Part shown: positions 3,301 to 38,865 of the stretch, piece after piece
Layout: every line of letters begins with the position of its first letter
Position numbering within the stretch: the first letter of the stretch is position 1
From: Kangiellaceae bacterium
GTDB taxonomy: Bacteria > Pseudomonadota > Gammaproteobacteria > Enterobacterales > Kangiellaceae
NCBI GenBank assembly: GCA_026196875.1
Contig: JAPHTP010000073.1
Location: 1 to 44,682, forward strand
DNA: 44,682 nucleotides
Reading direction: 5' to 3'
Position numbers and translations under genes: made by a program
The notes under the pieces: generated by a model
The model's input: only the letters and a program-made list of their open reading frames with translations
Told to the model about the DNA's origin: nothing
The model's database searches: none

Positions 3301-4483
3301 CTTTGTTAGGGTTTGTTGCGAGCTTCGCCTGATTAATAGCCTTGTCCAGAAAAAACTCTAACTGATAATCTATCACTTCAGATCGCTCAGTTTGATGATT
3401 TCTTGCAGCTATAATTTGTGGGTCAATGACACCCGCTGATTCCGGTAATACCAGCAGGAAAGAAGTCATACCGATGGGAATGCCATGAGAATCATCCTCC
3501 CATTGTTTTTGATCGCCGTCAAAATAAGTGAGTGCTTGAATTATCGGAACACCTAACTGCTCAAATTCACTTTTGCGTTTATTGGCCCAGTGAATAGTTC
3601 TAAAATTAACGATAACATCAACTATGGTTTCTCCATTTTTTGAAATCATGTGCTGGTAAGGTGAAGACATTGGACTGACTTCAAAAAAGAAAGGAATAAC
3701 TGTGGCTCCTTTGGCTTCAAGCGCATTTATCGCTGCATCGACCACATAGGTTTGTGACGATTCGACCAACGCCCTTTGCATCATTACCCCGACTTTATAA
3801 GAGTTTTGCCGAAGATTGCCTCCCTTTCTTTCACGAGAATCATTCCATTTTTCATAATCTTCTAAATTTTCAAAAATGAGATTTTCATATTTTGGATGAT
3901 AAATGCCTACTTCCGGATAAATTACCGGCTCTTTGACCGGCGTCGAGTTAGATGTAAACACTCTATTCTTTAGGTACGTAGCCATTCGAGCGAAGTTCTT
4001 AGCGCCGCCATTATCGTAGTAATGAAACAACTGCTTCGCATGTTTGGCTCCAATATTCTTCGTCAGAGATTCACTGTCATACCACTTAAGTGCCACAAAC
4101 TTTTTGTTAGACTGAGCGATAACTGGCGCAAACTTATCAAATTGCTTTTTAGTCTCTCTTTTTGATGCTCCATCAAAAAGAATCAGATCATACTGACCGA
4201 AAAGTTTTGCTGATGCGTCTAGGTCATCTAGCTTTGAAACTGGTTTGGAATCAACTTTGATCCCTTGCTTAATCGACTCGTCTTTCAGACTCTCTGACTT
4301 AGCTTTATAGGTATGACTGGTTCTAACGACTAACACCTTGTGATCAATAGCGCTCTCAGAACTGTTCGTTTTGCCTTCCTGCTCAGCAGAAGCATTCACC
4401 AAACCTGATAGTGAGAAAACTAACATGCTCAACAAAGTAGCGTAAAACTTAATTCGCTCTTTTATTTTTTCATTGAAATTCAT
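377..4483 (-). CDS. hmuS: CobN/HmuS-like chelatase, exported and membrane-anchored
   Basis: A 1368-residue CobN / magnesium-chelatase H-subunit family protein; the family motif GTHGTHEYLPGK lies near residues 572-585. Unlike cytoplasmic cobaltochelatase CobN, it begins with a signal peptide (residues 1 to about 33, ending ASAEQ) and ends with one transmembrane helix (about 1337-1358) and a short basic tail, so the bulk should face the periplasm. A His/Asp/Glu-rich insert (about 747-776) could bind metal. Among known homologues, HmuS of Bacteroidetes hmu operons acts on heme by removing iron. The neighbours here (HmuR-like receptor, ExbB-like protein, DUF2149) match that operon type. No CobS or CobT AAA+ partner is present. 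The start has an AGGA ribosome site. Cobalt insertion for B12 synthesis is the alternative but is unlikely for an exported protein. Confidence 0.85.
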   Translation of the reverse strand: MNFNEKIKERIKFYATLLSMLVFSLSGLVNASAEQEGKTNSSESAIDHKVLVVRTSHTYKAKSESLKDESIKQGIKVDSKPVSKLDDLDASAKLFGQYDLILFDGASKRETKKQFDKFAPVIAQSNKKFVALKWYDSESLTKNIGAKHAKQLFHYYDNGGAKNFARMATYLKNRVFTSNSTPVKEPVIYPEVGIYHPKYENLIFENLEDYEKWNDSRERKGGNLRQNSYKVGVMMQRALVESSQTYVVDAAINALEAKGATVIPFFFEVSPMSSPYQHMISKNGETIVDVIVNFRTIHWANKRKSEFEQLGVPIIQALTYFDGDQKQWEDDSHGIPIGMTSFLLVLPESAGVIDPQIIAARNHQTERSEVIDYQLEFFLDKAINQAKLATNPNKDKKLTVMFWGDRDMGASFMNVPESLHAISHRLEKEGYSIQGVEAEYFIARVNRILDPFYRDFELDELLDDDLAELLPVSDYKKWLATLPENVVKPINEKWGQPENNFMVVERDSQKYFVIPRIRNGNMLVLRQPPRGDSKDKEMGLYHDTKVPMNHYYMAAYFFAREYWNSDAFVHLGTHGTHEYLPGKDRGLSRYDGANLTTGSVPVVYPYIVDDVGEAMQAKRRGNAVIVSHMTPPFAAAGLQGVTADMHTLVDQYRHVDTGGVKEKTKQQIIEMCHKENLCKDLNYDQQTIDKSFDQFLSDLHSYLEELAAQNQPLGLHSFGELAEQRLIISTLGQMLGNDFLKVAADFEEGHYGHDQHDGHHHEEEHHDRENKRIEHSHDREGEKISDGLMHFIAEDLEATAGYKSIRDFVVSKGDPSELSDDIKPYIEQASKFYKDIVAIKELDNLVAGLSGKFIPPKNGGDPVRNPESLPTGFNLIGFDPARLPTKASWEQGKELAEDIINNYYKKHGQYPDKLAFSLWSVEAMRHYGVLESQALYAMGIRPVWSSDGRVIDTEIIPASELKRPRVDVVLSATGLYRDAFPNVMEMLAKAIKRLTELKEEGNSIWKNSQKVKQQLVAEGIDADEAEYLSSVRIFSNTFGDYGSGVDEPIMQSDTWETDAKIADSYLATMGYYFGADTERWGQQINNLYRKQLSGTDVAVFARSSNLYGMITSDDPFEYFGSLALAVRNIDGKSPEMMISNLRNPKRAKMEMAASLLAKELRSRNFHKRWIQEMQKEGYSGAVTMAGNVANFWGWQVVDPNVVRDDQWQEFHEIYVQDKMDLKLNQWFEEVNPGAQAQLIERMLEAVRKDYWQASEETQKQLVERYLEIVNKFDWFVENEKLKEFVKTSAQGFGLNAAFPEQPASASIQEQLNQQSSQKIEGQALEKIEQKAKQNDWNTALVSSLIICLLLLVIGGMIQARRSYRFAPV

Positions 4484-4510
4484 ATTCGAAATTCCTAAAT
4501 ATTGTTCTTT

Positions 4511-4870
4511 TTAATTGCCCGAAACATTTGTTTCATCAATTCCACGGTCATCATCCGAACCTTCACTTTCAGGTACGTAGACAATTGAACCGTCCTCCAT
4601 TCGATAAGCAATGCCTGCTTTTACACCATCGCCACTTCCTATTTTTCCAGAGCTCTTGTAGGTTTCGATCTTTTCACCACTTTTGATTATCATTTCCATA
4701 TTGGGTTTGCCGGCATTTTTAATGACGGTCACGTCTTGCTCTAAAAATGGATTAAGCGGATTTTGGGCAATTGCAATTAACAACGCCGCGACGAGCACAA
4801 GAAATACATCAACGAGATTGACAACAGACAGTGCAGGATTAATCGACTCGTCTTCATCAAGCAGCCTCAC
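4511..4870 (-). CDS. hmuV: DUF2149 (HmuV-like) protein with ExbD-like membrane helix
   Basis: About 119 residues. I start it at GTG 4870 because a near-perfect ribosome site (AAGGAGG, 4877-4883) sits six bases before it; the longer TTG reading at 4876 has no room for one. Residues 12-35 form one transmembrane helix with the sequence NLVDVFLVLVAALL, and the C-terminal part (about 36-119) is soluble, probably periplasmic. The helix resembles that of ExbD/TolR, including the single Asp (D21) that carries protons in those motors. The gene overlaps the end of the ExbB-like gene by 14 bases, so translation is likely coupled. DUF2149 proteins sit in hmu operons next to ExbB-like and CobN-like genes. 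ExbD-like function is inference from topology and this motif. Confidence 0.75.
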   Translation of the reverse strand: MRLLDEDESINPALSVVNLVDVFLVLVAALLIAIAQNPLNPFLEQDVTVIKNAGKPNMEMIIKSGEKIETYKSSGKIGSGDGVKAGIAYRMEDGSIVYVPESEGSDDDRGIDETNVSGN

Positions 4871-5438
4871 TGACAACCTCCTTGGCTTTCTTTTGTTTTT
4901 CTTCGAATAAGTAGGGTGTAACGGCTACCAAATCTTTAGCTAGCCATTTCTTTTTGTCGTTTGCGATCCAAAATGTAATTGAGGCTATTACAAGACCGAA
5001 GATAACAGCCGAAAACGCAACCACTAAGTTCTCAGAAATACCTTGAACATTTCCATTTGCTAAACTCTTCAGTGCCGGTCCCATTGGAATCATAGTTGCA
5101 ATTAATCCAAGCATCGGCGCTAGTCGGCTAACTGCTCGTACACCTTGCATTATTTCTAGTGCCGCAACATCAAGTTGATCCTTGCTAACTTTGGGATGGC
5201 TATGGGCAATTTCCAACAAAGGGTAGCCTTTAAGATTAAGGTTATTGGCTTGACCTAACTCACAATTCATAGCCTTAAAATAATTTGCACGGTTTTGCCT
5301 GCGCTGCCATATTTGAAAAAAGTACTCGCCTGAGGCGATTAGACTGTATGCAAAAAGAATAGCCAATAGAATCAAAACTGGCGCCATAAAAAAATCTGAC
5401 AATTCATACATCAGATTTTCGAGAGCATATATATTCAT
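4857..5438 (-). CDS. hmuU: MotA/TolQ/ExbB-family proton channel protein (HmuU-like)
   Basis: 193 residues with the MotA/TolQ/ExbB layout: one helix near residues 15-38, a cytoplasmic loop, then two helices (about 105-128 and 137-160). The conserved stretch VRAVSRLAPMLGLIATMIPMG corresponds to the ExbB/TolQ 'LGLLGTVxGM' region. It is an inner-membrane protein expected to form a proton channel with the downstream DUF2149 protein, which its gene overlaps. The start is ATG with GGAG upstream. It differs from standard ExbB in being tied to a CobN-like gene and having no tonB gene nearby, so it may serve the chelatase rather than (or as well as) the receptor. Confidence 0.8.
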   Translation of the reverse strand: MNIYALENLMYELSDFFMAPVLILLAILFAYSLIASGEYFFQIWQRRQNRANYFKAMNCELGQANNLNLKGYPLLEIAHSHPKVSKDQLDVAALEIMQGVRAVSRLAPMLGLIATMIPMGPALKSLANGNVQGISENLVVAFSAVIFGLVIASITFWIANDKKKWLAKDLVAVTPYLFEEKQKKAKEVVSEAA

Positions 5439-5541
5439 TTTTTCTCCGCAAGTAGGTTTATTTTTTTATTAATATAAATATGAGAATTGAAGGAAACAGG
5501 TAGATTTTACTCGGCGAATCACAGACACCTTAATTGAAAAC

Positions 5542-5563
5542 TAACCTGGGGTTTGACAGGTTA
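5542..5563 (-). terminator. Weak hairpin after the TonB receptor gene
   Basis: A 7-bp stem (TAACCTG / CAGGTTA, 8-base loop) lies in the 199-base gap between the receptor and the ExbB-like gene. Read on the minus strand it is followed by only four T residues, so it may reduce rather than stop read-through, giving more receptor than inner-membrane protein. No strong second promoter was recognised in the gap. Confidence 0.3.
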
Positions 5564-5637
5564 AAATCTGCTTAACTTTCTCTACCTTATCCTTCAATGA
5601 TCTTTAGCAACTAATTAAAACCGAAAAATTCTTTTAA

Positions 5638-7827
5638 CTAGAATTTCCAGCTCAACGATGCGCGTATTTCGGTTCCAGGCTCCAACAAGTTAGGAAGGGA
5701 AGCCGAGTCTGCGCTTAATCCAGCAATATTACTCCAGCGCGCATATTCCTCATCGAACAAATTGAAAACACCGAGCCTAACTCTCAAACTATTTGAAAAG
5801 TCGTAGTAACCGGTAACGTCAAATAGGTTGTATGCGTCAGCGGTTACATCACCTTCCTCTTCAACATCATCTTTTTCGGCAACAAATGTTGCAATCATCT
5901 CTAGCCCCCAACTGTCAGCCGTGTAGCTGGCACCTACAACTGCTGATAAAGGGTCTATCTCATTTAAGTCAGTATTAGTTGTTTCGTCTTTACCTTTTGA
6001 ATAAGCAATCGAGCTGCGAATTTTCCAGCTATCGTTAAGTGTCCATATACCGGTAAATTCTGCTCCATAGATATTAACTTCACCTACGTTCGAGTCCTGA
6101 AACAAATTGACTCCGTTTTGTACGCCGATAAAATTAGATGAAATAAAGTCTTCAAAATCGTTATTGTAGAAAGCTAAAGCAATGAAGTTTTTGCCGATAC
6201 GAGATTTGTAACCGATTTCATAACCCTTACTGGTTTCTGGTTTTAAATCTGGATTAGGGACGGTACCGTATCCATAGGCTAGATTGACGTAGGCCTGATT
6301 CGCCTCATCGTAGCTCGGTGCACGAAACCCTTCTGCGTATTGGAAGAAAAGTGAACTTGTTTCTCCCAAGTCATAAATTAAACCAAGGTTCTTAGAAACT
6401 TCACTTTCATCAGTAGATTCGATTTGAAAACCCAGGTCGGCTAGATTCTGCAATACTGTATCTTTGGCATCCATTTCAAACTTGTCGAAACGCATACCTG
6501 GAATCAATGTAAATCCGCTCTCCCCCAGTACGATTTCATCCTGGAAAAATATGCCGATACGCGTTGTTTCTGTATCAGGGAAAGTTTTATTAGGAAATTC
6601 TTCCGCAGGAGCCATAGGATATGCTCTTACATTACAGCTTATTGCTTGAGTAGCAGTGTCCGTTTCACAACGATTTCTTGGCCGCTCTGTTTCGACTACA
6701 TCATAAGTTACACCATAGACCATGGAATGTTGTGTACTACCTGACTCGATAGTTTTGTAGATAGTCGTCGCAAATCCCGTTACTTCTTGATTGAATTCAA
6801 AATCAGAAACCCTTAATGTTGCAGTATTGTTACCGAAAGGAGCGTAATCAAAAGAGTAACTGGTGTTTCTCATTTGACTGGTATGTTGTAATGCATCACC
6901 TGTTTGTGCGTAAAACTTGGATTCGATGCGATCAGCAAATGCGGTATCACCGTCCCAATCGTGAGAAATACTAAATCTTGTTCTATCACCATCATCCAAT
7001 CCTAAATATGGTAATTCAGGGGCTGAAGGATCGGTCAGGTTATAGTCGATTTCTTGCTTGAAATTATCAACCACAAAACTCCATTTATTCGCATCGTTAA
7101 CCTGATAAACAAGTTTAAATAATGCACCAGTAGAATTTCCGTCTTGTGGGCTTAAGCTTCCTTCACCGTTAACTTCTTGCTCTGCGAAATCTCTGCGGTT
7201 TACCTGCATCATATACTGAAGTTTGTTGTTGGTTCCTGCTAATGTGAACCCGAATTTTTTCAGTTCATTCGCATCTGCTGTAGATACGTTTAGGCGAGTA
7301 TAAACTTCACCATCATTTTCTATGTAATCAATGGGATCCTTTGACTTCATGAGTACAACGCCACCAAGGGCGTCTGAACCATACAAAGCAGATGCCGGGC
7401 CACGAATGATCTCAAACGATTTAATATCTTCTAGTTCATAATTTTCATTACCGTAAGACGCTGAACCCGCGGGGTAAATATCGCTACTTTTAACACCATC
7501 CAGCAACATCAGAACTCGCTTCCCGCTCATACCACGAATAGTGAAACCCTGGTTTCCACCTCTAGCTACACGGCGCATAGATAAGCCCGGTTGATAGCGA
7601 ATAACATCATCAAAATCTTCAGCAAGTTGCTTTTCGAGCTCTTCACTTTCTATCTTGGTAACCGTACCCGCGATATCCTCAGCTTCTCGAGGGAGTCTCG
7701 TCGCCGTAATTATCATTGTGGTTTCGTTTGCTTCATCAGTAGCAGTGGTATTTGCAAGTGCATTGGAAGTACCTAAGGCCGTGGATACTAAACCGCTAAT
7801 TAATAGCGGTTTAAACTTGTTATTCAT
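5638..7827 (-). CDS. hmuR: TonB-dependent heme receptor, HmuR-like
   Basis: 729-residue outer-membrane receptor. It has a signal peptide (cleavage near residue 25), a TonB box (about 38-45, TMIITATR), a plug domain containing IRGMSGKRVLMLLDGV and IIRGPASALYGSDALGG, a beta-barrel and a C-terminal Phe. The barrel carries FRAP (501-504) and NPDL (525-528), the motif pair that marks heme/hemoglobin receptors; NPDL is also the form in Porphyromonas HmuR. The His usually found between the two motifs is absent. The gene is first in a minus-strand operon with channel and chelatase genes, behind a Fur-like box, so iron limitation probably induces it. Ribosome site GGAG precedes the ATG. A porphyrin or cobalamin ligand cannot be excluded. 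Confidence 0.88.
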   Translation of the reverse strand: MNNKFKPLLISGLVSTALGTSNALANTTATDEANETTMIITATRLPREAEDIAGTVTKIESEELEKQLAEDFDDVIRYQPGLSMRRVARGGNQGFTIRGMSGKRVLMLLDGVKSSDIYPAGSASYGNENYELEDIKSFEIIRGPASALYGSDALGGVVLMKSKDPIDYIENDGEVYTRLNVSTADANELKKFGFTLAGTNNKLQYMMQVNRRDFAEQEVNGEGSLSPQDGNSTGALFKLVYQVNDANKWSFVVDNFKQEIDYNLTDPSAPELPYLGLDDGDRTRFSISHDWDGDTAFADRIESKFYAQTGDALQHTSQMRNTSYSFDYAPFGNNTATLRVSDFEFNQEVTGFATTIYKTIESGSTQHSMVYGVTYDVVETERPRNRCETDTATQAISCNVRAYPMAPAEEFPNKTFPDTETTRIGIFFQDEIVLGESGFTLIPGMRFDKFEMDAKDTVLQNLADLGFQIESTDESEVSKNLGLIYDLGETSSLFFQYAEGFRAPSYDEANQAYVNLAYGYGTVPNPDLKPETSKGYEIGYKSRIGKNFIALAFYNNDFEDFISSNFIGVQNGVNLFQDSNVGEVNIYGAEFTGIWTLNDSWKIRSSIAYSKGKDETTNTDLNEIDPLSAVVGASYTADSWGLEMIATFVAEKDDVEEEGDVTADAYNLFDVTGYYDFSNSLRVRLGVFNLFDEEYARWSNIAGLSADSASLPNLLEPGTEIRASLSWKF

Positions 7828-11320: not shown

Positions 11321-12643
11321 TCATAAAAAATCTTGAAACGGGGAACTCTTAGCATTTTTGTTCCAGATGGAAACCCCCACGGCATCTTTGTCGAGATACT
11401 TCTTCACAAAGATCCCTCGATCTCCATCCACAAGAACTTCCCGGATCCTATATTGATCGGCATTTTGATGATCGATTTCGATGGCCAAATCAACAATCCG
11501 TTGAGTCCCGGCGTTACCCAACTTATCTGTCACATATAACAGCTTTGGCTGTTCCGGCTTTCCTGAATCACAGCCTAGTACAATGGCAATTTCTCCAGAG
11601 TACATTTCAACCAAACTGCCTATTGGGGTTGGCGTCAACCACTTAACGAATTGTTCAACCAAAAACTCATCAAACTTCATACCTGCATTTTTAATAAGCA
11701 CACCGACCGCGTGGCTAGTAGTTCTCGCCTTGCTATAAGAGCGATCACTGGTAATTGCATCATATGCATCGATGATTGACACAATTTTTGCCGAACGAGA
11801 AACACGGTCTTTATGGATATGTCGAGGATAACCTTTACCATCCACCCTTTCATGATGGGATAAAGCGACTTCTTTAACAACTTCGCTTAAATTATCAACT
11901 TTAGATAAAATTCGAAAACTCTCTTCGGGATGATTTTTAAGTAGTAATGCTTCTTGTCGATTTATTTTGGTCGGCTTATTGAGTACTATACTTGGCATAC
12001 GTGCCTTACCGATATCATATAATAACGCGGCTAATCCCAAAGTCCGTATTTGCTCCTGGCTCATACCTAAAAACAAACCAAATCCAATACACAGGATGCT
12101 CACCCTCAACTGATGCTCAGTCGTGTAATTTTCGGCATCTTTAAGATTTTTCAGAAGTAGTAAAGCTTCGGGATTATTCTGCATGCTCACTAACATATCA
12201 TTGACCGTTAGCTGGAGCTCATGAACATCAACTTTTTTGTTTTGCAGGGCTTGCTTATGGATCGTTTGCAGTTCTTTTTGAGTTCTCTTAAATGCCGCGA
12301 GTGCTGACGGGAGCGCGTTTGACAAAGTCCTCGGTCTAGCTTCTCTTTTTACTGTTCTTCTGTTTCGCCTAACACTTCTCAGATCTTCGTCATCGGATTC
12401 GGTGGTAATAAGCTTAGACTCATTTAACTCGTTTGATTTCAGCTCAACAAATACGCTTCGGCACTCCCTTTTTAACTGATCTATCTGTTCTTCAGACTCT
12501 ATAGGAAATCCTTGAAACAAAAACGATGAGCTTTCCCACGGCTTGTCCAGTTGAGCAACGTACATACCAATTTTAAGGTCTTGAACTCTGACCTCGACAC
12601 GCTTAATTGAAGAGTATTCGTTCTTCATAGAATCAAATACCAT
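11321..12643 (-). CDS. DUF3391/HD-GYP protein, HD His replaced by Tyr
   Basis: 440 residues. The N-terminal DUF3391 domain (about 10-75, VRVQDLKIGMYVAQLDKPW) precedes an HD-GYP domain (about 165-360) of the type that hydrolyses cyclic di-GMP. The GYP signature is intact (HHERVDGKGYP, from residue 263), but the HD motif reads LLYDIGK, with Tyr209 in place of the metal-binding His and Asp210 kept. A paralogue at 29.7-31.0 kb has Phe at the same place. Both may have altered metal use or be sensors or adaptors rather than normal phosphodiesterases. A start at ATG 12628 (MKNEYSSIKRV) aligns better with the paralogue. Confidence 0.85.
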   Translation of the reverse strand: MVFDSMKNEYSSIKRVEVRVQDLKIGMYVAQLDKPWESSSFLFQGFPIESEEQIDQLKRECRSVFVELKSNELNESKLITTESDDEDLRSVRRNRRTVKREARPRTLSNALPSALAAFKRTQKELQTIHKQALQNKKVDVHELQLTVNDMLVSMQNNPEALLLLKNLKDAENYTTEHQLRVSILCIGFGLFLGMSQEQIRTLGLAALLYDIGKARMPSIVLNKPTKINRQEALLLKNHPEESFRILSKVDNLSEVVKEVALSHHERVDGKGYPRHIHKDRVSRSAKIVSIIDAYDAITSDRSYSKARTTSHAVGVLIKNAGMKFDEFLVEQFVKWLTPTPIGSLVEMYSGEIAIVLGCDSGKPEQPKLLYVTDKLGNAGTQRIVDLAIEIDHQNADQYRIREVLVDGDRGIFVKKYLDKDAVGVSIWNKNAKSSPFQDFL

Positions 12644-29672: not shown

Positions 29673-30983
29673 TTATAAAAACTTGTCAAATGGAGAGTTC
29701 TTATTTGCATTCTGGTTCCAGATCGAAACACCTATTGCGTCCTTGTCTAAATACCTTTTCAGGTTAACACCAAAATCACCATCAACCAATAGCTCTCTAA
29801 TTTGATATTTTTCACCTTGAGCTATTTCAGACTCCCTGGCAAGATCGATGATATGTTGAGTGCCGGTGTTTTTCATCCTATCTGTGACAATCAAAAGTTT
29901 GGGTTTGTCAGGCTGAGAAACGCTTGAGCCAATAACCAGGCCAACTTCTCCTGTTTTCATTTCTACTAAACTACCAATTGGTGTCGGACTTAACCAGGTT
30001 ATGAACTGCTCAACTAAAAACGGGTCAAACTTCTTGCCTGCATTGCTGGTTAAAATTGACATGGCCGAGGAAGCGTTTTTCGCCCGACTATAAGGCCTTT
30101 CACTGGTAATCGCGTCATAAGCATCAATTATGGAAATTATTTTAGCGTATCTTGAAACGCGATCTTTATGAATGTGACGAGGATATCCTTTGCCATCAAA
30201 TCTCTCGTGATGTGAAAGCGCAGCTTCCTTAACAACTTCACTCAAATTGTCAACTTTTTCCAAAAGACGATAGCTTTCCTCAGGATGGTGCTTTAATACA
30301 TGTGCTTCATCACGATTTATTTTACCTCTTTTGTTTATTACCAAACTAGGCATACGTGCCTTTCCAATGTCGAAAAGCAATCCAGCCAGACCAAGCGATT
30401 TTAATTGCTCTTCGCTCATTCCCAAGTGCATTCCAAATCCTAGCGCAAGGATACTCACTCTTAACTGGTGCTCAGTAGTATACTCTGCTGGATTTTTTAC
30501 ATTACGAAGAAGAAGAAGCGCTTCTGGTTTGCAGTTTAAACTAACTAACATTTGCTCAACTGTTTTTTTTAGTACTCCAACAGAGAAAGCTACATCTTGA
30601 GCAGCAAGCAAATGAATTTGTTTTAATTCTTTGCCTGTATTTTTGAAAGCCGCAAGCGCTGATGGCAGCTCATCGGATAACCCGTCGAATTTGGTATCTC
30701 TTCTTAATGATTTCGAAGCCTTTTCAATAGTTGAATCATCCCTTTCGACTTCAGTTCCTGTAGACAATCGAAAGACTTCATATTGTTGCTTGGTTTTAAA
30801 GTCAACATAGACTTTTCGACATTCGCGTTTTAGTTGATCAATCTGCTCTTGGGATTCAATCGGAAATCCCTGAAATAAGAACGAAGACTGTTCCCAGGGT
30901 TTATCGAGTTTGCCCACATACATGCCGACTTTAAGATCCTGTACGCGCACTTCTACTCGTTTGAGGTAGGAATACTCGTTCAT
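29673..30983 (-). CDS. DUF3391/HD-GYP protein, HD His replaced by Phe
   Basis: 436 residues, clearly a paralogue of the 11.3-12.6 kb protein over its whole length (MNEYSYLKRVEVRVQDLKVGMYV). DUF3391 at about 5-72, HD-GYP at about 160-355. The GYP signature HHERFDGKGYP is intact, but the HD motif reads LLFDIGK, with Phe204 where His normally binds metal and Asp205 kept. Both copies thus lack the same ligand. The start is ATG with GGAG at good spacing. It may be a c-di-GMP-responsive or degenerate phosphodiesterase. Confidence 0.87.
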   Translation of the reverse strand: MNEYSYLKRVEVRVQDLKVGMYVGKLDKPWEQSSFLFQGFPIESQEQIDQLKRECRKVYVDFKTKQQYEVFRLSTGTEVERDDSTIEKASKSLRRDTKFDGLSDELPSALAAFKNTGKELKQIHLLAAQDVAFSVGVLKKTVEQMLVSLNCKPEALLLLRNVKNPAEYTTEHQLRVSILALGFGMHLGMSEEQLKSLGLAGLLFDIGKARMPSLVINKRGKINRDEAHVLKHHPEESYRLLEKVDNLSEVVKEAALSHHERFDGKGYPRHIHKDRVSRYAKIISIIDAYDAITSERPYSRAKNASSAMSILTSNAGKKFDPFLVEQFITWLSPTPIGSLVEMKTGEVGLVIGSSVSQPDKPKLLIVTDRMKNTGTQHIIDLARESEIAQGEKYQIRELLVDGDFGVNLKRYLDKDAIGVSIWNQNANKNSPFDKFL

Positions 30984-31453
30984 TGTCGCTCCATCGATTT
31001 CTGAACTTATTGATTCAGGTGCATCTCAGATTGCACACCTTCAGATAATTCAACAGCAAAAGACGAATACGGCAATAAAGTCGCCTTACTATCTGAATAT
31101 TGTTTATTAAGGAGAAAATGTCAATAAATGAGATATTTAGTCACTTTCGTAATCTTTAAAGGACGATTAATCTCCTCCTCTACTCTAAAATTTAATCTTT
31201 TTTGGTACATTACCAAACCATGTATCCCCTTGTTTTAATTAAATTATTTTAAAATCAAGAATTTCTCCTTATATCCAAAAGTTGTTTACTAACTATTGCA
31301 ACTAAAAAGCCGATTGTGTTAAAAATACCCTAATCGAGCTCGAATGGATTGTATGGTTTAATTGTGAACTGGACACAAGTTTGCGAAATCCTAGAAAGAT
31401 GGAAATGATTCCTAATCCTCCAAGAGCAACCTAAACAGAGCAATATTCTTATA
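30984..31453. other. 470-base non-coding region between HD-GYP gene and arginine leader
   Basis: No gene found. Near the HD-GYP start there is a hairpin-like element (AGGTGC at 31017-31022 with GCACACCT at 31033-31040, one bulge) and an 8-bp inverted pair (TTCAGATA 31040-31047, TATCTGAA 31090-31097). The arginine promoter should lie in the right half; a weak candidate is TTGCAA (31296-31301) with TAAAAA (31320-31325), 18 bases apart. A TATAAT at 31450-31455 overlaps the leader ATG but has no matching -35. No clear ArgR box was seen. Confidence 0.4.
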
Positions 31454-31615
31454 ATGAACAAACAAGTTAGCGACTTAAAAGTACTAGCAGAAGAAGTACT
31501 GGCAGAGGCGGCTTCGAATGAAAGCCTGTTCCGCTCGTCTGTTCAATCAACTAACACAATTGCAGTTATCCGCCGTCGCCGCCGTACCTATTGGGCTGGG
31601 TGCGATGGTGTTTAG
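31454..31615 (+). CDS. Arginine leader peptide (53 aa, five consecutive Arg codons)
   Basis: ATG to TAG, 53 codons, not in the annotation of longer genes. Codons 40-44 are CGC CGT CGC CGC CGT, five Arg codons in a row that one tRNA-Arg(ICG) would read; they are followed by TYWAGCDGV and stop. The stop lies 24 bases before an intrinsic terminator, and the first arginine gene (argF') starts 96 bases after it. This is the layout of a ribosome-mediated attenuator: stalling at Arg codons when charged tRNA-Arg is scarce lets the operon be read. The ribosome site is weak (AGAG about 14 bases upstream), and 53 residues is long for a leader. A small peptide with its own function is the alternative. 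Confidence 0.75.
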   Translation: MNKQVSDLKVLAEEVLAEAASNESLFRSSVQSTNTIAVIRRRRRTYWAGCDGV

Positions 31616-31651
31616 TATGCGATAAAGAAACACTTTCGGAAAAACCCGGCC
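31594..31651 (+). promoter_or_regulatory. Antiterminator pairing of the arginine attenuator
   Basis: GGCUGGGU (31594-31601, leader codons 47-50) can pair with ACCCGGCC (31644-31651) over 8 bp with one G-U. The right arm is the left side of the terminator stem, so the two structures exclude each other. A ribosome stalled on the first Arg codons (31571 onward) leaves the left arm free, while one at the stop codon (31613) sits partly on it. Read by eye; not folded by program. Confidence 0.65.
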
Positions 31652-31670
31652 ATTGAGCCGGGTTTTTTTT
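31640..31670 (+). terminator. Intrinsic terminator before argF' (attenuator)
   Basis: An 11-bp stem (AAAAACCCGGC with GCCGGG and the following T residues), loop CATTGA, then eight T residues and, after CGC, seven more. It lies between the leader stop and argF', with no complete gene before it other than the leader, so it must regulate the arginine operon. Confidence 0.93.
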
Positions 31671-31711
31671 CGCTTTTTTTCAGCTTTTACTAATTAAACA
31701 GGAACACACCA

Positions 31712-32725
31712 ATGAAACACTACATAACCACAGCCGATTGGAAACAAAGCGAGCTACAGGAAATGCTCGATTTAGCGCAAGAGTTTAAGCAAGGACTTGA
31801 TGATGAATCGCTTAAAAACAAATCCGTCGCTCTACTCTTCTTTAATCCTAGCTTAAGAACCAGGACTTCTTTTGAAATCGGGACATGGCAAATGGGTGGG
31901 CATGCCATTGTCCTGGAACCGGGGAAAAATGCATGGCCTATCGAATTTGAGCTTGGCTCAGTGATGGACCAACAAGCGGAGGAACATGCAATTGAGGCCG
32001 CTAAAGTTCTTTCTAGATACTGCGATCTTATTTGTATTAGAGCATTTCCAAAGTTTGAAAATTGGAATGAAGATAGACAAGATAAAGTTATCAAGACATT
32101 TGCAAAGTACGCATCCGTTCCCGTAATCAACATGGAAACCATTACCCATCCGTGTCAGGAACTAGCCCATATGCAGGCCATCCAAGAGAAATTGGCAACC
32201 CAAGGTAAAGGGGGTACAAAAAATAAAAAATATCTTCTCACCTGGACCTACCATCCTAAACCGCTCAACACTGCAGTCGCCAATTCATCACTATTAATAT
32301 CAAGCAAATTTGGAATGGACGTAACGCTTCTTTGCCCTAATGAAAACTACCTCTTAGACGAACGCTATATGAATTTGGCCAAACAGAATGTTGAACAATA
32401 TGGCGGCAGCTTTCAAGTAACCCACAACATTGAAGAAGCATACCAGGATGCAGATGTTGTTTATGCGAAAAGTTGGGGAGCACTTCCTTTCTTTGGCTAT
32501 TGGGAGCCGGAAAAACCGATGCGAGATCAGTATAAACACTTCATCGTAAATGAAGAGAAAATGGCGCTCACTAACAATGGCATTTTCTCTCATTGCTTAC
32601 CGCTACGTCGAAATGTTAAAGCGACCGACGGTGTAATGGATGCCGACTATTGTTTTGCCATCGATGAAGCAGAGAATCGATTACATGTGCAGAAAGCAAT
32701 AATGAAAAAACTAATTAACCAGTAA
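31712..32725 (+). CDS. argF': N-acetylornithine carbamoyltransferase
   Basis: 337 residues. Carbamoyl-phosphate motif SLRTRTSFE (47-55), GKNAWPIEFELGSVMD with Trp75, the acidic EEH segment (90-92), ETITHPCQELAH, TWTYHPKPLNTAV and the C-terminal HCLPLRRNVKATD. These residues are those of Xanthomonas-type AOTCase rather than ordinary ornithine transcarbamylase, which has HCLPAYR; succinylornithine enzymes carry Pro where the Glu is here. The product is N-acetylcitrulline. It is the first gene of the six-gene operon, after the attenuator, with AGGAA before the ATG. The deacetylase two genes downstream is the expected partner. Confidence 0.95.
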   Translation: MKHYITTADWKQSELQEMLDLAQEFKQGLDDESLKNKSVALLFFNPSLRTRTSFEIGTWQMGGHAIVLEPGKNAWPIEFELGSVMDQQAEEHAIEAAKVLSRYCDLICIRAFPKFENWNEDRQDKVIKTFAKYASVPVINMETITHPCQELAHMQAIQEKLATQGKGGTKNKKYLLTWTYHPKPLNTAVANSSLLISSKFGMDVTLLCPNENYLLDERYMNLAKQNVEQYGGSFQVTHNIEEAYQDADVVYAKSWGALPFFGYWEPEKPMRDQYKHFIVNEEKMALTNNGIFSHCLPLRRNVKATDGVMDADYCFAIDEAENRLHVQKAIMKKLINQ

Positions 32726-32753: not shown

Positions 32754-34034
32754 ATGAACCAGCATATTAACGCGTCGCAAGATAAAAAAGTTGTCCTCGC
32801 CTTTTCCGGCGGATTAGATACCAGCTTTTGCGTCCCTTATTTAATCGAAAAAGGATTTCAAGTATCAACCATATTTGTTGACTCAGGAGGTGTGAACGAG
32901 GAAGAAAAATTATCAATTAAAGCCCGTTCACAAGAACTTGGAGCAACCAACCATTTTGAAGTCAATATTGCTGAGCAACTTTGGGAGAAAGTTGTGACGC
33001 CATTAGTCCAAGGAGGTAAATGGTATCAAAATCAATATCCTTTGCTTTGCTCGGACAGATACCTGATCGTCGAATCTTGTCTGGAGTTATGCGATCAAAT
33101 CGGAACCAAAAATTTCGCCCATGGATGCACCGGAATGGGTAACGACCAGGTCAGATTCGACTTGGCTGTGCAAAGCTTAGGTGATTACAATATCATTTCA
33201 CCGATTAGAGAAATCCAAAAACTTACCAGTCAGGTAAGAGACTACGAGATTGAATTCTTAACCAACAAAGGTTTTAAAGTCTCAGACAAAGTTTCGGCCT
33301 ATTCAATTAATGAAAATCTACTTGGCGCCACTATATCGGGCTCTGAAATTGATCAATGGCAAGAACCCAAGGCAGCATCTTACGTATTAACAAAACCTTC
33401 AAACACAATAGCCAACGAACCAGGCAAAATAACTCTCGAGTTTGTAAAAGGAAAATTAGCTTCCCTGAATGACCAAGTCGTTGGCAAAGATATTAGCGGT
33501 GAGCAGGTCATGCAACTGCTCAACACTAAGGGAGGCAATTATTCCATAGGTAGAGGAATCTATACTGGTGACACAACAATAGGGTTAAAAGGCAGAATTG
33601 TTTTTGAATCTCCCGCTCTCGAATTATTAAACGTAGCCCATACCGCACTAGAACAAGCGGTATTAACAAAGTCACAAAACAGGTTCAAATCATCGGTTGC
33701 CGAAAAATGGACTGAGTTGGTCTATGAAGGTTTATTCTACGAACCGTTGAAATCGGATTTAGAAGCTTTCTTGCAATCATCTCAACAGAAAGTAACCGGT
33801 ACAGTTACACTTGAACTCTCCCACGGACAAGTACATGCGGTCGCAATTGATTCGGCAAACATACTTCACGACAAAGGTTCGGTCTATGCGCAATCTGCTT
33901 CATGGACTATCGAAGAAGCACAAGGATTTATCAAGTTATTCGGAAAGTCGTCGGTGCTTGCCGCTAAGCAGACCTCAAAGCTAGCGCCAGACACAGAATC
34001 ATCCTCAAACAACGAATGTTTAAAGGCGGTTTAA
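32754..34034 (+). CDS. argG: Argininosuccinate synthase
   Basis: 426 residues. ATP-binding P-loop SGGLDTS at the N-terminus, then VDSGGVNEEEKL, HGCTGMGNDQVRFD (substrate and AMP binding) and SIGRGIYTGDTTIGLKGR. It joins citrulline and aspartate with ATP to argininosuccinate. It belongs to the shorter argG type seen with acetylated-pathway operons. AGGAA precedes the ATG; the gene lies 28 bases after argF' and two bases before argE. In this pathway it needs citrulline released from acetylcitrulline by ArgE. Confidence 0.95.
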   Translation: MNQHINASQDKKVVLAFSGGLDTSFCVPYLIEKGFQVSTIFVDSGGVNEEEKLSIKARSQELGATNHFEVNIAEQLWEKVVTPLVQGGKWYQNQYPLLCSDRYLIVESCLELCDQIGTKNFAHGCTGMGNDQVRFDLAVQSLGDYNIISPIREIQKLTSQVRDYEIEFLTNKGFKVSDKVSAYSINENLLGATISGSEIDQWQEPKAASYVLTKPSNTIANEPGKITLEFVKGKLASLNDQVVGKDISGEQVMQLLNTKGGNYSIGRGIYTGDTTIGLKGRIVFESPALELLNVAHTALEQAVLTKSQNRFKSSVAEKWTELVYEGLFYEPLKSDLEAFLQSSQQKVTGTVTLELSHGQVHAVAIDSANILHDKGSVYAQSASWTIEEAQGFIKLFGKSSVLAAKQTSKLAPDTESSSNNECLKAV

Positions 34035-34036
34035 TC

Positions 34037-35149
34037 ATGGGCACATCGACTAGCTTACAGTCTACTTTAAGGCATCTGGAAGATCTGGTTTCCGCGGATA
34101 CTCAAAATCCACCGCGAACGATTACCAAAGACAGTCCTATTTTTGAATATATAAAGCTTAATCTCCCTAATTTCAGTTTTGAATTCTTTGATGCTGGAGA
34201 TGGATGTATAAGTTTATTGGCACAAAGAGGATCGCCAGCTCTACTTTTTAACTTCCACATTGATACGGTTCCTATTGCTCAAGGTTGGGAGACCGATCCA
34301 CACAAGCTGGAAATCGTTAATGGCAAAGCATATGGTCTAGGTGCATGTGATATTAAGGGTGCCGCAGCTTGTATGCTAACTGCCGCCAATAACACAAGTG
34401 GCGATCTTGCCCTATTGTTTTCATCTGACGAAGAGTATGGTAGTAGCGCTGCTATTAAGTACTTTCTTTCTCTCAACAAAGACTTTAAAAAGGTAATTGT
34501 CGCAGAACCAACGGAAGCAAAAGCCGTTACCGCTCACAGAGGAATTCAATCTGCTGTCGCAAAATTCTCAGGCATATCAGGCCATGCATCCGAAGCACGA
34601 GCATTTAGTGACAACGCTATTCATAAGGCGACCAAGTGGTCAAGCAAAACTCTCGATTGGATTTCGCAACAAGTATTTGAATTTCAGAACTTAAATGGCC
34701 TTCCATTTAACATCGGCAAAATTGAAGGTGGCATTAAAGCTAATATGATTGCCGCGGACTGTACACTTTCATTTGGATTTAGAACGCTTCCCGGTCAATG
34801 CGCATCCACACTATTATCCTCATTCTCTGAACTTCATTTAGCACAGGATGACCTTGAAATAGTTGCTGGATTTACTGGACCAAGTTTGCCCGCTCCCAAT
34901 CAAGAATTTGAACTATCAATTCAGCATGCGGAAACTCTTGCTTCTCAATTTAATTTACCCATTGGAGATGCAGTTAATTTCTGGACGGAAGCCAGCCTGT
35001 TTTCTCAGTCTGGAGCTATCGCTATCGTTTTTGGTCCGGGAAATATCGCTCAAGCACACACTGCAAACGAATGGGTTGAATTCAGCCAGTTAGAAAAGGT
35101 TTACGGGCATTATTTAAATATTATCGATGGTGGTACTTCCGATGCATAG
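34037..35149 (+). CDS. argE: Acetylornithine/acetylcitrulline deacetylase
   Basis: 370 residues from ATG 34037, two bases after the argG stop, with AGGCGG upstream; an ATG inside argG (34016) is less likely. M20 metallopeptidase: metal ligands in LLFNFHIDTVP and GACDIKGAAACM, the catalytic Glu in SSDEEYGSS, dimerisation domain about 170-280. Because argF' makes acetylcitrulline, the natural substrate is probably N-acetylcitrulline, as shown for Xanthomonas. It overlaps the next gene by eight bases. Confidence 0.92.
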   Translation: MGTSTSLQSTLRHLEDLVSADTQNPPRTITKDSPIFEYIKLNLPNFSFEFFDAGDGCISLLAQRGSPALLFNFHIDTVPIAQGWETDPHKLEIVNGKAYGLGACDIKGAAACMLTAANNTSGDLALLFSSDEEYGSSAAIKYFLSLNKDFKKVIVAEPTEAKAVTAHRGIQSAVAKFSGISGHASEARAFSDNAIHKATKWSSKTLDWISQQVFEFQNLNGLPFNIGKIEGGIKANMIAADCTLSFGFRTLPGQCASTLLSSFSELHLAQDDLEIVAGFTGPSLPAPNQEFELSIQHAETLASQFNLPIGDAVNFWTEASLFSQSGAIAIVFGPGNIAQAHTANEWVEFSQLEKVYGHYLNIIDGGTSDA

Positions 35150-36527
35150 TTATAAAATTGTAGATAACATCTACGGTGAAAAGCAAAATCACTCGAAAGC
35201 AAAAGAAACGATCATTCAATTGCTTTCAAACTTAGCTAATCCAAAAGAGATCGACCAATATCTAGAACGTTTTGTCAATGCAGGAAAGACTCACTTTGCA
35301 GTAATAAAAGTCGGTGGTGCCGTACTTGAAAACGATCTAGATAATTTATGCTCTTCATTAGCATTTTTAGAACAAATAGGGCTCTTCCCTATTGTCGTTC
35401 ACGGAGCGGGACCACAACTTAGTTTAAAACTCAGGTCTAGTGGAATTGAGCCTCAGTTTATTGACGGGCAGAGAGTCACCGATAAAAAGACACTGAAGAT
35501 AGCAAAGAAAGTGTTTGTCGAGCAAAATCTGAAGTTGGCAAATAAAATGCAATCCTTAGGAGTTAAAACAGCTTCTATCACCAGCGGCGTATTTACTGCT
35601 GAACAAGAATCTGAATCGCAACTTGGTTTAGTAGGCCAAGTTACCCAGATCGATCTCGATCCCATTACAACCGCAATCGAAAGCGGAGCGATCCCAATAC
35701 TATCATCAGTCGGTGAATCTGAAAGCGGCCAAATCCTGAATATCAATGCTGACGTTGCGACCAATCAATTGGCGATAGCACTAAAACCCTACAAGATAAT
35801 ATTCCTTACCGAAACCGGTGGAATTTTAGGAAAGGATGAAAAAATTGTCTCTTCTATAAACTTGGTCACGGACTATCATAAATTGATAGAACAACCCTGG
35901 CTCCACGGAGGAATGAAACTTAAACTCCAACAAATTGCCGAAATTCTTAGCCAGCTCCCCTCCACTGCATCCGTTTCAATCACCAAGCCTGCACACTTGG
36001 CGAAAGAGCTCTTTACCCATAAAGGCTCGGGTACGCTACTAAGAAAAGGTGAATCAATAATGGTTCATGATGATATCGAAACGATTAAGGTAAAAAAGCT
36101 CAAGTTCTTACTTGAGTCCAGTTTTGGAAAGCATCTTCAACCGGACTATTTTGAAGCAACAAAAATTCGCAAAGCATTTATTACTTACTGCTATCGTGCA
36201 GCAGCAATCATCACTGAGGAAAATGGAGTTGCTTATTTAGATAAATTTGTTGTTGCCGAGGATGCAAAAGGTGAAGGCCTAGGCAAAGCGGTTTGGGAAA
36301 AACTGGTTAATTCAACGCCTGAGTTTTTTTGGCGTTCACAACATAATAATCCAATAAACGGATTCTACTCAAGAAAAGCGGATGGATTTCAAAAGTCATC
36401 GAACTGGTGCGTATTCTGGAAAGGTCTGGAAGATTTTAACATCATTTCAAAATGTGTAGCACTAGCCAAGAGCAAACCGGCCACACTAGTCCATCAACAA
36501 CAATTAAACCCCATTACAAAGAAATAG
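35142..36527 (+). CDS. argB: Bifunctional N-acetylglutamate kinase/synthase (NAGS-K)
   Basis: 461 residues from ATG 35142; ATG 35127 would add five. An amino-acid-kinase domain (about 50-290, VIKVGGAVLE, VVHGAGPQLS, LTETGGIL) is fused to a C-terminal GNAT domain (about 310-440, with AYLDKFVVAEDAKGEGLGKAVWEKL carrying the acetyl-CoA motif GEGLGKA). This fusion, which both acetylates glutamate and phosphorylates it, is typical of Xanthomonadales and relatives. It is likely feedback-inhibited by arginine. It overlaps argE and lies two bases before argC, so translation is coupled. Confidence 0.93.
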   Translation: MHSYKIVDNIYGEKQNHSKAKETIIQLLSNLANPKEIDQYLERFVNAGKTHFAVIKVGGAVLENDLDNLCSSLAFLEQIGLFPIVVHGAGPQLSLKLRSSGIEPQFIDGQRVTDKKTLKIAKKVFVEQNLKLANKMQSLGVKTASITSGVFTAEQESESQLGLVGQVTQIDLDPITTAIESGAIPILSSVGESESGQILNINADVATNQLAIALKPYKIIFLTETGGILGKDEKIVSSINLVTDYHKLIEQPWLHGGMKLKLQQIAEILSQLPSTASVSITKPAHLAKELFTHKGSGTLLRKGESIMVHDDIETIKVKKLKFLLESSFGKHLQPDYFEATKIRKAFITYCYRAAAIITEENGVAYLDKFVVAEDAKGEGLGKAVWEKLVNSTPEFFWRSQHNNPINGFYSRKADGFQKSSNWCVFWKGLEDFNIISKCVALAKSKPATLVHQQQLNPITKK

Positions 36528-36529
36528 CT

Positions 36530-37537
36530 ATGAATCATCAGAAAAAGTACTCAGTAGGCATAGTTGGCGTAAGAGGTTACGTCGGCATGGAGTTGGTTAA
36601 AATTATTAATTTGCACCCAAACCTTGAGCTAGCCTGGCTAAGCTCTCGCCAACTTAAGAATAAATCGATAAATGAAGTTGCCGACGTGAAGCTGAATTCA
36701 GACATTAAAATCGAATCTTTAAGTCCTACTGAGATAGCCTCACGTCAAACCGACATCGTTGTATTGGCGCTTCCCAATCTAGTCGCCCAGCCTTTTGTTT
36801 CTTGTTTACTAGAAGTTAATAAGAATCAGTTGATTATTGATTTATCTGCTGATTATAGATTCGACTCTGATTGGATTTATTCGATTCCGGAGTTGCACAC
36901 TATCAAAAAAGGAAAAAAACAATTAAGCAAGCCTATCTTATTAAGCAACCCCGGCTGCTACGCAACAGCAATGCAACTTGCCATCGCGCCGGTTGCTGAC
37001 TTAGTTGTAGGAAGGCCGAACTGCTTTGGTATTTCTGGTTATAGTGGCGCAGGCACTACCCCTAGCACGACCAATAATCCAGACAACTTAAACAACAATA
37101 TTATACCTTACAAGCTGATTGAGCATACTCACGAAAAGGAAGTCAGCTTTCACCTGAGTCACCCAATCAGTTTTTCGCCACACGTTGCAAGTTTTTTTCG
37201 AGGGATCAGTATGACAGTTCAGCTAGAGTTTACTCAATCAATAACCGAACAATATTTATTTCAACGATTTAATGACTTCTATGCTTTTCATGAACTTGCT
37301 CATTGTCGCAAGGAAATCCCAAACATCCAACAAGTGGTTGGCACGCATAACTGTGTACTTGGTGGATTTTCCGTCAGTAAAGACGGAAAACGAGCAACGA
37401 TAGTTAGTTGCTTGGATAATTTATTGAAAGGGGCTGCAAGCCAAGCAATTCAAAATATAAACTTAGCTCTCGACTTGGAACCGATTGCAGGGCTAAGAGA
37501 TAACTTAAACCCATTCAAGCTCAAGATTTCAGCTTGA
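36530..37537 (+). CDS. argC: N-acetyl-gamma-glutamyl-phosphate reductase
   Basis: 335 residues from ATG 36530, two bases after the argB/A stop. NADP-binding VGIVGVRGYVGMELVK is at the N-terminus; catalytic Cys sits in LSNPGCYATAMQLA (about residue 143). GISGYSGAGTTPS and HSHPISFSPHVASFFRG-type stretches follow. It reduces acetylglutamyl phosphate to the semialdehyde. The ribosome site is weak, in line with translational coupling. Confidence 0.94.
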   Translation: MNHQKKYSVGIVGVRGYVGMELVKIINLHPNLELAWLSSRQLKNKSINEVADVKLNSDIKIESLSPTEIASRQTDIVVLALPNLVAQPFVSCLLEVNKNQLIIDLSADYRFDSDWIYSIPELHTIKKGKKQLSKPILLSNPGCYATAMQLAIAPVADLVVGRPNCFGISGYSGAGTTPSTTNNPDNLNNNIIPYKLIEHTHEKEVSFHLSHPISFSPHVASFFRGISMTVQLEFTQSITEQYLFQRFNDFYAFHELAHCRKEIPNIQQVVGTHNCVLGGFSVSKDGKRATIVSCLDNLLKGAASQAIQNINLALDLEPIAGLRDNLNPFKLKISA

Positions 37538-37569
37538 TATAGTTTTTACATGATGACTTGGAGAAAATT

Positions 37570-38865
37570 ATGAGTGCACCGATTTGGCAAAAACAAAGTG
37601 CGGCAAAAACAGATGAAGCCATCATGCAGTATATGGCAGGTGAAGATATCATTCTTGATCGCATTTTAATGCCCTACGATATCCTCGCAAGTAAAGCACA
37701 TGCGAGTGGACTTCAGAGTATCGGGGTTTTAAGCGAGGAAGAATTAATAAAGCTGAAAAGAGAATTGGATAATCTCAGTTTAGCTTTAGCGCAAGGAGAC
37801 TTTACACTCGACTCTCAATTTGAAGACTGCCATTCTGCGATTGAATTTTACTTGACGGAAAAGTTGGGAAACCTGGGCAAGAAAATTCATACTGGCCGCT
37901 CGCGCAATGATCAGGTTGCGGTAGCAACCAGGCTTTACCTAAAAGATTCCCTCTCAACCGCAAGTGAATACGTTTCAAAAACGATTATTGAATGTCTAGC
38001 AAAAGCTGAGGCAACGAAAAACATCGCAATGCCGGGTTATACACACTTACAAAGAGCAGTTCCCTCTTCTTGTGGAATGTGGTTTGCCAGTTTTGCCGAA
38101 GCAATGATCGACAACTTGGCGTCAATTAAACACTGTTCAGAATTAATTGATTCAAATCCACTTGGGACCGCGGCCGGTTACGGAGTTAATCTACCTCTTA
38201 ATAGAGAATTAACGACCAAAGAGCTTGGTTTTGGTAGAGCGCAAATCAATCCAATATATGCTCAAAATAGTCGAGGTAAATTTGAAATTGCCGTACTAAA
38301 CTCACTGGCTCAATGTATGTTAGATGTCAGAAGGTATAGTTGGGATCTCTCTTTATTTACTACTCAAGAATTTAACTTTGTCAGTCTCCCTGATGAAATG
38401 ACTACCGGTAGCTCGATAATGCCTAATAAACGTAACCCCGATCTAATTGAATTGATGCGAGCAAGTTATGCCAGTGTGCAAGCTGCCATTGTCGAAATTC
38501 AATCGCTTTTGTCATTGCCTTCTGGCTACCAGAGAGATCTACAATTTTCTAAAGGCCCAATGATAAGAGGTATTACTCAAGCTCTACAAACACTATGTTT
38601 ATTTTCGGAAGTAGTTAAAGAAACTGAGTTTATAGCTGATAACTTAAACGATGCAATTGATACTCCTATGTATGCTACTGACTTCGCTGTCGAATTAAGC
38701 AGCCAAGGAATCCCGTTTAGAGATGCTTATCAAAATGTCGTCGCTCGATATTCTGAACTTGAAAGCCGAACTCCAGCAGATAGCCTAGCTCAGCGAACAT
38801 CCTTCGGTGCTTGCGCTCAACTAGGAATTTTAGAGCTTAAAATGCGCTTTGAGTCACTAAAATAA
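37570..38865 (+). CDS. argH: Argininosuccinate lyase
   Basis: 431 residues from ATG 37570 with GGAG seven bases upstream. Fumarase/aspartase superfamily: HTGRSRNDQVAVATRLYLKD, TGYTHLQRAVP-type stretch (MPGYTHLQRAVPSS) and signature GSSIMPNKRNPD with the catalytic Ser. It splits argininosuccinate to arginine and fumarate, the last step of the pathway, and ends the operon. No terminator was seen in the 89 bases before the next gene. Confidence 0.95.
   Translation: MSAPIWQKQSAAKTDEAIMQYMAGEDIILDRILMPYDILASKAHASGLQSIGVLSEEELIKLKRELDNLSLALAQGDFTLDSQFEDCHSAIEFYLTEKLGNLGKKIHTGRSRNDQVAVATRLYLKDSLSTASEYVSKTIIECLAKAEATKNIAMPGYTHLQRAVPSSCGMWFASFAEAMIDNLASIKHCSELIDSNPLGTAAGYGVNLPLNRELTTKELGFGRAQINPIYAQNSRGKFEIAVLNSLAQCMLDVRRYSWDLSLFTTQEFNFVSLPDEMTTGSSIMPNKRNPDLIELMRASYASVQAAIVEIQSLLSLPSGYQRDLQFSKGPMIRGITQALQTLCLFSEVVKETEFIADNLNDAIDTPMYATDFAVELSSQGIPFRDAYQNVVARYSELESRTPADSLAQRTSFGACAQLGILELKMRFESLK

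Follow-up and report, generated by a model that had tools for sequence, protein, structure and literature searches.

A predicted ribosome-mediated, arginine-specific transcription attenuator upstream of argF' in genomes without ArgR

In the classical his and trp attenuators, a leader open reading frame (ORF) with a run of control codons is followed by an antiterminator just past the run and by a terminator located before the first gene of the operon. We investigated an element with the same layout that precedes argF', the gene for N-acetylornithine carbamoyltransferase, in Kangiellaceae bacterium (assembly GCA_026196875.1, contig JAPHTP010000073.1); the window, that is, the whole stretch of DNA analysed, comprises 44,682 nt (positions 1–44,682, forward strand). 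Unlike the his and trp attenuators, this element carries arginine codons, precedes the argF' operon and occurs in genomes without ArgR, and in a second type of leader, type B, a conserved SRARR peptide replaces the codon run. Based on a purely computational analysis of sequence, folding and comparison, we conclude that the element is very probably a classical ribosome-mediated transcription attenuator, specific for arginine, which controls argF'-G-E'-BA-C-H in a genome without detectable ArgR.

Several described systems touch on parts of this arrangement. The ArgR regulon targets the same pathway but works through a DNA-binding repressor, for which the genome of the window has no match. Arginine codons in orf34, the leader ORF of Salmonella speF, likewise sense low arginine via ribosome pausing, but the gene under the control of orf34 encodes an ornithine decarboxylase, and this control involves Rho, RNase G and a masked ribosome-binding site (accessible part of PMC6386406). 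The accessible part of a 2005 survey (PMC1262725) names attenuators for histidine, threonine and phenylalanine and lists arginine under T-boxes; the main text of a 2010 survey of premature terminators (PMC2965389) contains neither 'arginine' nor 'argF'; and a 2021 survey (PMC8632094) reports a carA motif and a cysS attenuator, with no occurrence of 'argF' in its accessible part. Across the open-access literature searched, no description of such an attenuator for arginine or argF' was found. A preliminary description of the locus, made from the sequence alone, had suggested an undescribed class of arginine control; the mechanism is the known one of the his/trp type, and only for arginine/argF' can this description hold. 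The type B leader RNA does have an entry of its own, being catalogued as the Xanthomonadaceae small RNA (sRNA) Xoo5 (Rfam RF02242).

The leader ORF of the window carries, toward its 3' end, a run of five CGY codons for the amino acid that the downstream operon makes, and an intrinsic terminator separates this ORF from the first structural gene (Table 1). The stem arms of the terminator are perfect (31640–31650 and 31657–31667), and the hairpin lies 22–24 nt past the stop codon. Most of its 5' arm is contained in segment 3, which can alternatively pair with segment 2, just past the arginine run, over 8 bp including one G-U pair. The RNA spanning 31454–31680 folds better than 200 of 200 shuffled sequences (z -3.2), and its fold includes a hairpin (1:2) between the arginine codons and the region past the run. 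The preliminary description had named the ORF with its arginine codons, the terminator and the alternative pairing that would break the terminator, and all three were recovered at the expected positions. A protein search with the 53-aa leader returned only itself and weak matches (E 0.03–0.1).

With ample charged tRNA-Arg, the ribosome would clear the CGY run and cover segment 2 (GGCUGGGU), segment 3 would pair with segment 4, the 3' arm of the terminator, and transcription would end before argF'. With charged tRNA-Arg scarce, the ribosome would stall within the run and leave segment 2, which follows closely, free to pair with segment 3 as this emerges and while segment 4 is still to be transcribed; no terminator would then form, and the operon would be read. 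Whereas the anatomy, conservation, covariation, spacing and lack of an ArgR match are read from the sequences, the response to starvation and the kinetic competition are predictions of the model, as are a transcription start upstream of the leader and translation of the leader ORF.

The arrangement is widely conserved. In the order sample of 148 genomes, 8 genomes including that of the window encode a close argF' (E below 1e-150), the next matches (E about 1e-33) being taken as ordinary carbamoyltransferases, and the succession of a short ORF with an Arg run, a terminator and argF' recurs in 7/7 of the other argF' genomes. The leader peptides of these relatives share little besides the Arg run (e.g., ..SNIIRRRRRIFEVGI, ..LVLRRRHIDWIGFGGE, ..QLRRRSQRTSVAGN). 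A named-genome set consisted of the best 80 argF' loci of a longer list, among them loci of Aliikangiella, Kangiella, Rhodanobacter, Dyella, Stenotrophomonas, Xanthomonas and Lysobacter; 78 of the 80 were readable (L045 has no upstream sequence, and L107 has only 92 nt, which contain the terminator), and a leader with a terminator was present within 600 nt upstream in 77 of these 78. The two samples overlap, with at least 4 genomes in both, and the script that collected the relatives' leaders required an Arg cluster. When one copy was kept for genomes present in both collections (L005/L038, L004/L048, L006/L044, L008/L103), 85 leaders of two kinds were obtained: group A, with 19 leaders including that of the window and runs of three to five Arg, and group B, with 66 leaders from Xanthomonadales that contain ..MTSRARR... 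(62 named-genome loci and 4 others). At two loci (L042 and L047), about 300 and 430 nt separate the terminator from argF', and repeated stretches can be seen there by eye, as if repeats had been inserted after the attenuator. One record titled Bacillus subtilis SK7B5 (L098) contains an argF' locus with a leader resembling those of Stenotrophomonas and is probably a contamination or wrongly labelled.

A separate Xanthomonadales sample of 81 genomes, 69 of which have argF' at E 1e-60, yielded 67 testable upstream regions (one of the other two lacks the 5' part and one has 11 nt upstream). A fixed script that looked for a short ORF, an Arg cluster and a terminator called a leader in 51/67 loci and an antiterminator as well in 42/67. 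Applied to 986 control windows of 600 nt, the same script made a single call, and none with an antiterminator; these controls were flanks of the named argF' loci, taken on both strands, and are largely coding and not matched to intergenic DNA. ArgR is encoded in 8/81 genomes of this sample, all from one family with a distant argF' (39–41% identity), in which no leader was called in 5/5 testable loci; without this family, the count is 51/62. A short ORF with Arg codons and a terminator, for which the preliminary description had proposed to search relatives, are conserved there upstream of argF'. Upstream of carA, no Arg leader was seen in the 4 readable of 5 loci.

Both alternative helices are supported by covariation. 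In an alignment of 18 group A leaders (A2; L050, with a broken Arg cluster, was left out of this alignment and of the covariance model R1 described below), 90% of the cells of the antiterminator are paired and 3 pairs are changed on both sides, whereas slid controls pair only 21–49%; for the terminator, 94% of the cells are paired and 2 pairs are changed on both sides. The pairing and covariation scores lie above every slid control, bearing out the covarying stem bases for which the preliminary description had proposed to look. At the key pair, the group B leaders have U-A in 42 cases, C-G in 23 and U-G in 1. Moreover, the antiterminator keeps a steadier distance to the Arg codons than to the stop codon: in group A, the GGG of segment 2 lies 18–28 nt past the first Arg codon (standard deviation (sd) 2.5, vs sd 5.7 relative to the stop), and in group B, it lies 20–21 nt past the last Arg codon in 66/66 leaders. 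In four group B loci, the stop has moved ahead of GCTGGG, and the word is still 20 nt from the last Arg codon; judging from the sequence, GCTGGG is kept there as RNA, not as peptide.

Folding with a ribosome block, a check proposed in the preliminary description, behaved as predicted. The RNA was folded up to the 5' arm of the terminator, that is, with segment 4 not yet made, and with a ribosome footprint from -17 to +12 nt around the A-site (L040, which contains N, was omitted). With the A-site at codons 0 to +3 of the run, the 2:3 pairing exceeded 0.5 in 17/18 group A loci, and it did so in 16 and 14 of 18 with the A-site one and two codons ahead of the run, in 7–9/18 at three to eight codons ahead, in 4/18 at +5 and in 0/18 at +7 to +12. 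For the window itself, the pairing is 0.99 at Arg codons 0 and +2 and 0.00–0.07 at six other states. By this computation, a ribosome on the control codons releases an antiterminator that excludes the terminator, provided that kinetic competition operates. In group B, a ribosome at the stop codon leaves the 2:3 pairing in 0/66 leaders, a clear block.

The genomes concerned show no sign of the repressor. The Pfam ArgR family (PF01316) has no match in 12/12 genomes, namely that of the window and 11 relatives, with a positive E. coli control, and in the order sample, ArgR is found in 117/148 genomes and in 0/8 argF' genomes; these ArgR and argF' counts represent few independent events because of shared ancestry. 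The best ArgR box match in the window agrees at 13/18 positions with the consensus, a level that 195/200 shuffles reach, in keeping with the preliminary description, in which no such box had been seen. Neither component of an ArgR-controlled operon, the ArgR protein or an ARG box, was therefore detected in the genome of the window. That description had also suggested a tie of the element to the acetylated pathway; this is an association, which the absence of ArgR would explain equally well, and the one Xanthomonadales family with ArgR has no called leader in its testable loci.

Codon choice in the runs is strongly skewed. The Arg codons of group A runs are CGY in 68/74 cases and CGA in 6/74, a wider count around the runs includes 1 CGG in 82 and no AGA or AGG, and argF' genes of the same genomes use CGY in 55/196. 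CGU, CGC and CGA are all read by one tRNA-Arg (anticodon ICG), and the codon choice fits sensing of this single isoacceptor.

The R1 model, a covariance model of the 18 group A leaders run on the 148 genomes at E 0.1, matches in at least 140 of them, and only the top 8 matches were taken as the arginine element. These are the argF' leaders (E 2e-20 to 7.5e-13), which is so by construction, all 8 genomes having fed the model. Six places among the lower matches were read. Two of them, L188 and L189, are His leaders that precede hisG, and two more, L190 and L192, are Trp leaders that precede trpE (the genes at L189 and L190 were checked with Pfam, and L188 and L192 were judged by likeness). Because the model also picks up His and Trp leaders, the arginine element is built like the known attenuators of related genomes. 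The other two places, L191 and L193, proved to be terminators of other genes. At L188 and L189, hisG is preceded by a pair of His leader ORFs in tandem, each with a terminator behind it (1450–1800 after reverse complement); these genomes belong to the family of the window and have no close argF', and we read the arrangement as a double his attenuator.

Several results weigh against the attenuator interpretation. L088 has an argF' without a leader within 600 nt, and the 16 uncalled loci of the Xanthomonadales sample comprise, besides the 5 of the ArgR-bearing family, 11 others: L131 and L134, in which MTSRARR is present but no terminator passed the script, and L144, L146, L154, L168, L150, L160, L161, L169 and L172. 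Lack of ArgR does not imply presence of the element, since 31/148 order genomes lack ArgR, 23 of these without a close argF', and only 8 have argF'. In the folds, 5/18 group A leaders form 2:3 above 0.5 with no ribosome at all, 3/18 do so with a ribosome at the stop (L043, L103 and L010, which are unmasked because the stop is 24–27 nt past segment 2), and in L009, 2:3 is not formed even with a stalled ribosome. In group B, 2:3 forms in 28–36/66 leaders with the A-site on or just past SRARR vs 26/66 untranslated, a weak contrast. When the full terminator is present, it wins in 17–18/18 leaders at every ribosome position, and the decision must therefore fall during transcription, as a kinetic switch. 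Hairpin 1:2, which in classical attenuators blocks the antiterminator when the leader is not translated, shows no covariation beyond shuffles in group A (67% of cells paired; 77/500 shuffles reach this value), and the preference for CGY could be partly due to RNA pairing.

The group B leaders lead to the Xoo5 family. RF02242 matches them with 101–126 bits in L032–L034 and with 31 bits, below the cut-off, in L035. In a set of 14 further loci, 6 score 74–148 bits, and the cut-off is not reached by Rhodanobacter, Dyella, two Lysobacter and four group A loci; overall, the above-cut-off matches upstream of argF' span 54–148 bits. In the Xanthomonadales sample, 10/81 genomes have a match above the cut-off and 24/81 at E 0.01. 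No Rfam match at gathering score was found for the window, three Aliikangiella loci and one Kangiella locus, and the window (cut-off 50 bits) is thus no member of RF02242. According to the accessible part of Liang et al. 2011 (PMC3039613), sRNA-Xoo5 of Xanthomonas oryzae is flanked by PXO_00354 and PXO_00353, the latter being N-acetylornithine carbamoyltransferase (Table 4 there); its 5' end was determined by rapid amplification of cDNA ends (RACE), its size is given as 124 nt, Northern bands are about 130 and 100 nt, and deletion of seven of the eight sRNAs (not Xoo8) caused no differences in growth or virulence. The words 'leader' and 'arginine' do not occur in the accessible part of its main text. 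In L033 and L034, the Rfam model begins 2 nt ahead of the leader AUG, and type B mRNA would therefore be almost leaderless. The 3' end of the model is just short of the terminator hairpin, so that the catalogued RNA is shorter than the predicted terminated transcript, to which processing or cloning may have contributed. Many group A leader ATGs lack a clear Shine-Dalgarno sequence by eye; together with the almost leaderless type B, this raises the prospect that weak initiation may be part of the leader design.

The catalogued transcript invites the view that the leader is mainly an independent sRNA or small-protein gene with its own terminator and no role in cis. Northern blot and 5' RACE did detect Xoo5 in Xanthomonas oryzae (accessible part of PMC3039613), but 10/10 above-cut-off matches in the 81 genomes closely precede argF' on the same strand, the spacing and covariation of the antiterminator fit a termination switch, and GCTGGG is retained in the four group B loci with a displaced stop, all of which makes this explanation very improbable. 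That the leader is a chance ORF before the terminator of an upstream transcript has next to no likelihood: the upstream intergenic region is AT-rich by eye and short ORFs are common, but conservation, codon bias, spacing and the null test contradict this explanation, and the closest gene on the upstream side is encoded on the opposite strand.

A further alternative is sensing by the nascent peptide, in which ribosome arrest would be due to the leader peptide and a cofactor (arginine or a metabolite) and not to uncharged tRNA. It is more plausible for the MTSRARR leaders of Xanthomonads than for the window. Counting loci with and without the motif, we found MTSRARR in 62/62 named Xanthomonadales loci and in 28/28 further sample loci of four families; among the 66 leaders, the motif is invariant despite silent changes (ACG 34/ACC 29, GCG 31/GCC 30, CGT 59/CGC 7), and the flanking codons vary in residue. 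Against this stand the last codon, invariably CGA (66/66), which suggests a constraint at the codon or RNA level too, and the plain Arg runs in varied contexts in group A and other families (RRRRR, PRRRR, RRLRRPG). Furthermore, arrest at high arginine would be expected to free the antiterminator, the wrong sign for a biosynthetic operon. As an account of the element, we consider nascent-peptide sensing unlikely. A more specific conjecture, which we hold to be somewhat less doubtful, although still improbable, is that on the almost leaderless Xanthomonad mRNA the ribosome is arrested or slowed, depending on arginine, by the nascent MTSRARR peptide itself, and that this peptide, coupled to the terminator, takes the place of ArgR in much of the order.

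The proposal of a ribosome-mediated arginine attenuator, already made in the preliminary description, is thus supported by the conserved parts, the covariation of both helices, the lack of ArgR and the block folding. As a mechanism it is familiar; the amino acid and the target are new, and the element occurs in many argF' genomes without ArgR and is partly catalogued under another name. Control by RNA, rather than by a repressor, is a possible answer to the question of how gammaproteobacteria that lack ArgR, the Xanthomonas/Stenotrophomonas/Lysobacter group among them, can regulate arginine synthesis, and arginine would join the amino acids with classical leader-peptide attenuators. The element also provides a likely identity for the 'sRNA' Xoo5, which alters the reading of its deletion data, and the MTSRARR leader offers a test case for codon sensing versus nascent-chain sensing.

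Table 1. Features of the predicted attenuator and the arginine operon in the window
Feature	Position	Strand	Basis or remark
Candidate promoter, TTGCAA-N17-TTAAAA (box TTGC-N18-GTTA..AATA)	31296..31327	+	inferred
Leader peptide ORF, 53 codons	31454..31615	+	ORF list and translation; reads MNKQ...IAVIRRRRRTYWAGCDGV
Control codons, five CGY arginine codons (CGC CGT CGC CGC CGT), residues 40-44	31571..31585	+	
Segment 2, GGCTGGGT, antiterminator 5' arm	31594..31601	+	
Intrinsic terminator hairpin, then T-rich stretch	31638..31669	+	
Segment 3, ACCCGGCC, shared by antiterminator (3' arm) and terminator (5' arm)	31644..31651	+	
argF', N-acetylornithine carbamoyltransferase	31712..32725	+	NCBIfam NF003384, 562.8 bits, cut-off 288
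argG, argininosuccinate synthase	32754..34034	+	TIGR00032, 277.7 bits, cut-off 268.2
argE'-like deacetylase (M20)	34016..35149	+	NF006439, 461.2 bits, cut-off 345
argB-argA fusion (acetylglutamate kinase and NAT domain)	35127..36527	+	NF003387, 614.8 bits, cut-off 426; Pfam AA_kinase, NAT
argC	36452..37537	+	TIGR01850, 274.3 bits, cut-off 233.6
argH	37558..38865	+	TIGR00838, 304.2 bits, cut-off 279.5

A box like the candidate promoter precedes the leader in L036, L037 and L038, and, by eye, in L004 (the same genome as L048); it is missing in 6/11 sequences examined, and L039 has only a distant partial match. A TATAAT at 31450 had been raised in the preliminary description as a possible late start.

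Two similar HD-domain proteins with DUF3391 are encoded on the minus strand (11321–12643 and 29673–30983), the latter being located upstream of the arg leader. Elsewhere in the window (377–7827, minus strand), a CobN/magnesium-chelatase family protein is encoded beside a MotA/ExbB-family protein and a TonB receptor, a possible set for metal or cobalamin-related uptake.
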